The position numbers and the translations under genes were made by a program. The notes beneath the pieces are model-generated. The model did not search any database and was not told the origin of the DNA. It was given only the letters and a program-made list of their open reading frames with translations. From Mytilus galloprovincialis (taxonomy: Eukaryota > Mollusca > Bivalvia > Mytilida > Mytilidae), in assembly GCF_965363235.1 (NCBI RefSeq), contig NC_134846.1, forward strand, positions 2,919,001-2,983,000: a stretch of 64,000 nt of DNA, read 5' to 3'. Of the stretch, positions 36,592 to 39,500 are shown piece after piece; positions within the stretch are counted from its first letter, which is position 1, and each line of letters opens with the position of its first letter.

Positions 36592-39500
36592 ATGGCAACT
36601 GTTGTGAGGAACGTGCGAGCTCTGTTTAAATTTCACCCAACAGTTCTTAGACGATCGATTTGTAGATTTAGTGCAGTGTCATATGTACATAATAGACATC
36701 AAACAAATGAACTAAGTTGCTTGAATTCTCACAAACTTCTATCCAAGGTAGATATCTGAGTTTTCGGCCTACACTTTTTTTGAAGGACACAAGCATGATC
36801 TGTAGAAAAATCATGTGTTTTTGAGTACTTCAGCTAAATATTATTGTTTCTTTTTGTACAAAAACTATTCTGCAAATAACATGTAAGGATCACCAACAAA
36901 AGACCATTTCATTATCATAGTTTGCAAATATGAATATTGATATAATCAAATAATCCTTCAAACATGTCAAACATTTTCAAAAGGACAATGAAAAAAGTAG
37001 CAAAACACCCCCTGCAAATATATTATCCAGTATTCCTTAACACAATAACTGAGGATTAAAAGAATTTGGATCACAACATGCAAGGTGTTTTGTACTGTCA
37101 ACGTTTTTAAATTTTTCAAACTTTTATCTATCATTCCATGCAGATTCCTATTCAGTGGCTGAGTGGTCAAAATAGTTACTTCTATAAATTATCACTAGCC
37201 AATCAACACTGAGGTTGTGAGCACAAACCCCGCTCGTGAGGATACACTCAGATCCAATCTTAATCGACTACAATTGTCAGTTTTTCGAAGGTCTTGGTTT
37301 TCTTCTGGCACTCTGGCTTCTTCCACCATTAAAATTTAAAACTAGTTATCACGAAATAGCCCAAAAGTGGTGTTAGAACACGAATATCAAATCAAATCCT
37401 GCTACATGGTATAACAACCATTGGCATTGCATTTTATCATCAGTGTAATTTTTTTCTAATTCCAAAAATGATCAACAATGCAACATAAAAATGTCCAGGA
37501 TATTTCTTGAACTTACAATATGTTGGGGAAAGGACGAACCGTCTAAATACTACAAAATCGATGTACTGAAAACCATAAGCATGATAAACATAAACCACTC
37601 TTTGTGTAGTCAAATTAATATTACATGGGTTATCTTATAACTTTCATTAGGATGTTAAAAAAGTTATATATTTATTAAATTAATAACCATGATAACCAGA
37701 CATGTTTAGTTCAAATGTGATAACATCAGAAAAAAACTTTTTTCCTTGATTACATCAGCCAGTTATCTGTGGCTGATTACATCAGAAACATGACACTCTG
37801 CAAGTTTTAGATTTAGTTGATTTAAAGTTTATAGTCAGCAAATCAAACATAACAGCTGAAAGCCTGAAAATTTGTTTTATAATTATTTCAAGAAAAAGTG
37901 ATTTTAAAGTTACAGCATGCATGTGCAAATGTTTAAAAAAGAAGAAAAGAAGGAAAACAGCACATGCTTATAATTAGAAAAAAAATTAATTGGTAAAATT
38001 AGAGAGATAATTGTTTAAAAACTTTTTGTAAACATGGTAAATCTGCTAGACAATCTATTAAAATAAGATGTTGATATGTAGCAACCCAGAATATCATGAA
38101 TATAAAACTACAATGTATATATATTCAGTCCTATAATAAACAATTTTTGAATACATAGTATTTTTTCTGTCAATCAAGTTTTAGCCATGTTTTATGTACA
38201 TGTGACATTTCTTTTTATAGGGCAACAAAATATATATATGAATGTACACAGCCTCTGGTCTTTGTTACAATTATTCTTGTACAGTATGTTATTTTAGTTA
38301 GGTCACAACTTTAGTGTGACATCAATTTTCATTGAATGTGGATACGTTTTGCTTAGGGGCCAGCTGATTTTTGCTGTGTTGCAGCTTAATAAATTGGCTA
38401 ATTGAAGACAAAAAAAAAACAATCAGTAGAATTTAATGAATAGAGAAAAATGGTCTACTTGATCATGTTGATGAAAAAATACAGAAATGAAGTCCACCAT
38501 TTGAACCCTCTTGCATAATCATGATAATAAGTACAAGATTACTAATATTTTTCTGCTTCAGATTTCACCTTCCAATTTGAACTCTGGAGTGCGATTTTAT
38601 GGAAAAGCAAAATCGCTGCAACCAGAAGAAATTACAGAACGTGTCATGAAAGTGTTGAAAGCTTATGACAAAATAACAGCAGAAAAGGTATGATATTATA
38701 TAAATAATTCTCTTTATTTCCAGACACCAAATTTAAACCTAACAAGATCATATGGTGCAGCCGTTCCAATGACCTTTGATGCTATTACACAGAGGGTCAT
38801 GCTTGTTCTAAGATTGTATGACAAAATCAACCCAGAAAAGGTAAGAAAAGACTTGAAATATTCTGTTCCACTTTACATTTGTAAAATAAACCCTGTTAAC
38901 ATAGTTAATAAAGCATGTCCTTTTCACAAACAAATTACTACCAAGTCCTGATTGCAATCAACTAAATCGCAAATTATAAACAGAACATTCTAGATTAACA
39001 CTTGACAGAGTCTCCCCATGTGGTATTTGATGTTCTCAGATCTCAAGATGTCATATATAGGAGTTGGTGAAATCTTTAAGAAATAAAAGTAATTAATACG
39101 TCATGCATTTCAACTGGAGTTTTTATACAGCCATTGCTACATATATGCAACTGAGTGAGTGCCATTTACCATGTTTACCACTCACAACTCCTCTTGAAAC
39201 TTCTCACAGCACACATACACTTTTAAGGTAGCTGAGACCTTGGTCCTCCTACAATTTTCAAATAACTTCCCCTGTCACATTATAATATTACATTAAATTT
39301 GAAATTACTTATGTTTCTTTTTCTTCCACGGAACATACAAAATTACATTTCTTTGGAGTAAAAAGCAATGAATCGATAAGTGAAAACCATCTTTAATTAA
39401 CTCCCATGTTAGAGGAACATAAGGAATTTAATGAAATTTTGAGGTTTTTGGGTGCTAGCTGTGTCCGTCTTTAGATAGAATCTAATTTTGAATATATATG

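Follow-up and report, generated by a model that had tools for sequence, protein, structure and literature searches.

A mitochondrial acyl carrier protein gene with two candidate second exons

The 64,000-nt stretch of Mytilus galloprovincialis DNA analysed here (contig NC_134846.1, positions 2,919,001 to 2,983,000; hereafter the window, in whose numbering positions are given) contains NDUFAB1, which encodes the mitochondrial acyl carrier protein, at 36592-40306 on the plus strand. Its second exon is present in two versions, 2a and 2b, and our analysis confirms what a preliminary description of this DNA had stated, namely that the two are homologous, lie in the same phase with good splice sites and are only 36 nt apart. 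The coding exons and the associated splicing features are these:

36592..36747, plus strand: exon 1, coding part, from the start codon to the donor (AAG/GTAGAT, weak by eye); 52 codons, presequence-like
38545, plus strand: candidate branch A of exon 2a; perfect CTAAT at -17; motif match only
38562..38687, plus strand: exon 2a; 126 nt, 42 codons, phase 0/0
38688..38723, plus strand: gap between 2a and 2b; 36 nt, GT...AG; its second in-frame codon is a stop (TGA) if the gap is retained
38707, plus strand: candidate branch A of exon 2b; ATAAT, +20 from the 2a donor and -17 from 2b; motif match only
38724..38840, plus strand: exon 2b; 117 nt, 39 codons, phase 0/0
39509..39596, plus strand: exon 3; carries the DSL serine
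40215..40306, plus strand: exon 4; runs to the stop codon

In this family the DSL serine, here in exon 3, is the phosphopantetheine carrier. The end of exon 3 was set at 39596, before GTAAGT, which gives the EDEF-x-FEIP stretch of the family without an inserted residue. Splicing of exons 1-2a-3-4 gives a product of 153 residues and splicing of exons 1-2b-3-4 one of 150 residues; both are full-length acyl carrier proteins that match NDUFAB1 chains in PDB, and the match to animal NDUFAB1 extends across the mature protein. The best PDB match was NDUFAB1 for each form, with an E value of 3.6e-32 (114.6 bits) for the 2a form and 2.9e-35 (124.5 bits) for the 2b form, whose query carried a one-residue error at the end of exon 3. 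The phosphopantetheine attachment domain of Pfam (PF00550) was found above its cut-off in the 2a, 2b and exon-2-skipped forms, again with a one-residue exon 3 error in the queries; as the skipped form passes too, this match says nothing on exon 2.

A six-frame protein search of the 1.38 Gb genome at E values up to 10 returned five matches, every one within the NDUFAB1 gene, and a DNA search with the exon pair returned only the self-match. By these searches the genome contains one NDUFAB1 gene, and neither search found a processed NDUFAB1 copy that could record the splicing pattern. The genome also has 17 matches to the Pfam family Myticin-prepro, a mussel antimicrobial family, in keeping with a mussel source. 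None of the 17 matches in an acyl-carrier family search of the genome fell on NDUFAB1's own exons, so copies split in this way could go undetected by the family search on its own. Of these 17 matches, the two that were inspected, L002 and L008, were rejected as NDUFAB1 copies; both contain GLDSLM and resemble domains from large synthases.

Exons 2a and 2b are homologous and both look constrained

The peptides encoded by 2a and 2b are identical at 21 of 39 aligned residues, with a local alignment score of 80 that was reached in none of 20,000 shuffles (top shuffle, 45). They thus lie in tandem, are homologous, have similar lengths and keep a common frame, the arrangement expected of a mutually exclusive pair. 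At the nucleotide level their identity is 59, 69 and 46% at codon positions 1, 2 and 3, respectively, and the Nei-Gojobori method (NG86) gives a dN of 0.449 and a dS of 1.94, hence a dN/dS of about 0.23.

The pair was also compared with chains that we take to be those of fly and mouse, over a 33-residue stretch running from one residue before an R-x-Y motif through the exon end. In this stretch 2a and 2b share 17 residues, 2b shares 17 with fly and 19 with mouse, and 2a shares 16 with each. Because 2a is as distant from 2b as 2b is from fly, the duplication is old, and each copy can still be recognised as acyl carrier protein. Fly and two mammals agree at 24 exon-2 positions, of which 2b retains 16 and 2a retains 14, so neither copy has decayed. 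Twelve exon-2 columns are invariant in all five aligned sequences, including the R and Y of R-x-Y, and the motif is followed by G or S. With the dN/dS and dS values given above, the pair is old and both copies look constrained.

A 36-nt gap and the proposed choice between 2a and 2b

Each exon 2 is open in phase 0 at both ends, and is preceded by a pyrimidine-rich stretch with a CAG end and followed by an intact donor, AAG/GTATGA for 2a and AAG/GTAAGA for 2b, the sites being judged by eye rather than with a trained splice model. On this basis the donor of 2b (GTAAGA) is better than that of 2a (GTATGA), 2a has the better branch motif and the exon 1 donor is weak, differences that would leave room for regulation. 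Upstream of the 2b acceptor there is no AG for 34 nt, and this stretch contains a single CTAAT-like site, at +20, so a normal 2b branch point would be confined to the gap. The distance from the 2a donor to this candidate 2b branch point would be 20 nt by motif, and the whole gap is 36 nt, values that would lie in the range of steric exclusion (donor to branch below about 50 nt) if the motif match is the branch point.

We infer from the DNA that both exons would be used in RNA, with steric exclusion at the predicted branch points setting the choice, and that the products would differ in function. The pair is probably an old tandem duplicate of exon 2, of which a transcript would include one copy or the other. 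Exon 1 would join 2a, by way of the branch A at -17, or 2b, and the chosen exon would join exon 3. Serial joining of 2a to 2b would be impossible, since the 2a donor and the 2b branch point, some 20 nt apart, would leave too little room for the U1 and U2 small nuclear ribonucleoproteins on one intron. The outcome would be two full acyl carrier proteins that share the presequence of exon 1, the serine arm and the C-terminus but differ in the mature N-terminus and in what we take to be helix I.

The preliminary description had argued from the rule that animal introns need about 45 nt or more. This is a fair rule and not a hard limit, since the shortest human intron proven by reverse transcription PCR (RT-PCR), and seen in RNA-seq too, is 43 nt long, and a 37-nt human intron has been counted as confirmed, solely on an individually sequenced record (PMC4463651). 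Among human constructs the smallest productive distance from donor to branch point was 46 nt, with a critical risk below 50 nt (PMC11291888), and in flies an ultra-short intron class of 40-50 nt is already spliced more slowly (PMC5762160). With a gap of 36 nt and a branch motif at +20, set against the 46-nt human minimum, the view that the two exons are too close for ordinary serial joining is supported. Within the mussel genome itself, 36 introns estimated in chaperonin genes ranged from about 157 to 7598 nt with a median of about 844 nt (68 of 74 profile matches were used, and adjacent exon pairs were picked by profile continuity), and five sites in kinesin and chaperonin genes, picked by eye for inspection, contained no ultra-short intron.

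These lengths bear on the idea that the 36-nt stretch is a true ultra-short intron and that both exons are used in series in a 192-residue protein, which we regard as barely credible. The stretch does have GT...AG ends and a branch-like motif, and its removal maintains the frame; however, it is shorter than both the RT-PCR-proven human minimum and the fly class, the five inspected kinesin and chaperonin places had no such intron, and we know of no tandem helix I copies in the acyl carrier protein family.

It is also quite unlikely, in our estimate, that just one of the two exons is used, in which case 2b would more likely be the working exon and 2a a relic or a rarely used copy. The 2b form does score higher against PDB (by a query with the exon 3 error noted above), its donor looks stronger, and 2a departs from LKLYDKI, where the second L is A, and from DPEK, where the P is A. 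An unused copy should decay, however, and recent kinesin exon copies in the same genome, described below, already hold stop codons, whereas 2a is open, retains nearly as many fly-mammal positions as 2b, keeps the cleavage motif and has intact splice sites and the better branch motif, CTAAT, despite a dS of about 1.9.

Paired RNA, as selector or looping stems, could set an either-or choice instead of distance, but we consider this very unlikely. A perfect 15-nt inverted pair joins intron 1 to intron 2 (38028-38042 with 39164-39178; 11 of 2000 shuffles gave one at least as long), and two imperfect candidate pairs also span the exons, one of 18 nt (89%; 37805-37822 with 38956-38973) and one of 14 nt (86%; 36974-36987 with 38916-38929). 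The 15-mer, ATTTACCATGTTTAC, whose complement lies on the other flank of the exon pair, has 492 copies in the genome compared with 16 for a reversed control, which marks it as part of a dispersed repeat, and a stem enclosing both exons would not select between 2a and 2b. The predicted fold of the RNA around the exons is no more stable than those of shuffled sequences (z -0.44; 34 of 100 were equally stable or more so).

Several points limit the case for either-or splicing of 2a and 2b. Mutual exclusion is predicted from the DNA of one mollusc, and the branch sites are candidates by motif match. The dS is saturated and the dN/dS of about 0.23 is a rough value from just 39 codons. The argument that 36 nt is too short draws on human and fly introns and on a small sample in this genome, where very short introns are easily read through by the profile search, which is thus biased against listing them; the shortest intron read by hand, of 141 nt in a chaperonin gene (L029), is an ordinary intron. 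Finally, double inclusion and double skipping both stay in frame, so neither product would be removed by message decay and splicing mechanics alone would prevent either, which leaves steric exclusion as the likely enforcer.

Origin of the exon pair

The starts of 2a and 2b are 162 nt apart, and recent tandem arrays of exon-bearing units were found in kinesin genes elsewhere in the genome. At L020 1017-1814 (G000:C3:107861516-107862313) a kinesin motor exon and its acceptor are repeated as a 133-nt unit 6.0 times at 97% likeness; the final copy runs on into the full exon, some units end in GTAACA and one copy has a stop codon. Two further arrays lie in kinesin motor exons, at L021 1072-1431 (120 nt, 3.0 copies, 93%) and at L022 976-1310 (118 nt, 2.8 copies, 96%), and some of the kinesin tandem copies hold stop codons. 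Short tandem exon duplication may be frequent in this genome. A duplicated unit barely exceeding the exon would leave too short a gap for splicing, so that the resulting pair would be mutually exclusive from birth; judging by its anatomy, the NDUFAB1 pair resembles an ancient case of such a kinesin-like tandem duplication that has been kept. Mollusc myosin exon clusters have been described (PMC3912159). Separately, two similar myosin head exon stretches with 48 nt between the matches were observed on the minus strand at L023 (about G000:C14:43040561-43040836).

The preliminary description also pointed to alternative homologous exons in Drosophila mtacp1, for which the original fly paper is reportedly Ragone 1999 (by way of PMC551531). 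This precedent is real: in D. melanogaster, D. pseudoobscura and Anopheles, mtacp1 has tandem homologous exons that are mutually exclusive and have a phase 1 intron on each side, and Apis retains the duplicate exons (PMC551531). In the same report, expressed sequence tag (EST) data gave no evidence of such a pair in vertebrates or nematodes. The insect gene (CG9160, ND-ACP) is thus like that of the mussel in being the same gene with tandem homologous exons, its exclusivity being EST-backed and conserved (PMC551531, PMC2241641). It differs in that its exon pair is flanked by phase 1 introns (PMC551531), as would be expected on both sides of the mussel pair had the same event produced them, whereas the mussel flanks are phase 0/0, and in that transcripts are available for the insect case and the mussel case is known from DNA alone.

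Because of this difference in intron phase, separate duplications in insects and mussel appear likelier than common ancestry, in a comparison that covered the intron phases and one fly chain. Of the two histories offered earlier, an arrangement that is ancient or one that evolved twice, the second is accordingly favoured and ancient sharing is less likely. We consider it unlikely that one exon duplication, of protostome age or older, is shared with insects; such a shared duplication, being a matter of origin alone, would not conflict with either-or splicing. The same gene with an exon swap in both lineages would fit it, as would the old date implied by the equal 2a-2b and 2b-fly distances, but the phases of the flanking introns speak against it, and so do a G, a T and an M (positions 5, 16 and 20 of the 33-residue stretch) that 2a and 2b have in common and that occur in neither fly nor mouse.

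A pattern search of viral contigs gave 25 matches, five of them acyl-carrier relatives at 38-57% identity; a pattern search of genome contigs gave 62 matches, none of which was a relative by tblastn, and no second mollusc or insect gene came from these searches. Among the literature titles and abstract openings listed, in a collection with few subscription journals, none dealt with NDUFAB1 exons in a mollusc.

Elsewhere in the window, two minus-strand open frames at 44728-45105 and 51590-52000 look like adjacent genes of what we take to be the Rho/Rac-type GTPases (WYPE.. HHCP.TPIIL.G).

Possible functions of two isoforms

Since one NDUFAB1 gene was found, two isoforms would share out or adjust the tasks of a single protein. 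A difference in import cleavage, which had been suggested, finds no support, as both exons encode R-x-Y/G at the equivalent place. We take R-x-Y to be the cleavage site of the import protease. The swapped segment is predicted to be the mature N-terminus and helix I, with the cleavage rule unaffected.

A complex I with two distinct mitochondrial acyl carrier proteins is known from PDB molecule names, ACPM1 and ACPM2; these entries are presumably those of fungi and plants, in which the two come from separate genes and not from splice forms. Other complex I entries, which we take to be those of fly, each have one acyl carrier sequence (6 chains from three entries and 2 from another). In a paper on fly complex I, NDUFAB1-alpha and NDUFAB1-beta both appear as Acyl carrier protein (PMC10036122). 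This is mild evidence against a split of complex I in flies with one isoform per site. A complementary DNA of fly mtACP isoform B has been described (PMC6895606).

Two other mitochondrial proteins offer parallels in exon structure. Exon 10 of AOX in Crassostrea virginica is a tandem duplicated exon of a bivalve mitochondrial protein that is used alternatively, with one copy conserved across taxa and one novel; it differs from the mussel case in being the last exon, in another gene, with a stress switch demonstrated by expression (PMC5589949). In the vertebrate mitochondrial enzyme OGDH, exons 4a and 4b are kept exclusive by branch points that lie under a proposed steric threshold of about 50 nt between donor and branch; the human branch points lie 25-41 nt from the donor, compared with a whole gap of 36 nt and a branch motif at 20 nt in the mussel (PMC7969005).

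It is possible, although doubtful at present, that molluscs and insects separately duplicated this exon and made it exclusive, and that the swap of helix I yields two functionally distinct proteins. The rationale would be that complex I, fatty acid synthesis, lipoylation and iron-sulfur cluster assembly all depend on one gene, which would supply two acyl carrier proteins just as two genes do in fungi and plants.

If both exons are used, either-or NDUFAB1 isoforms of the insect type would also occur in a bivalve, probably by a separate origin. The 36-nt gap, if it acts as proposed, would be a clear example in nature of steric exclusion that has no message decay to back it up, and repeated evolution of the swap, if true, would argue that animals gain from having two mitochondrial acyl carrier proteins.
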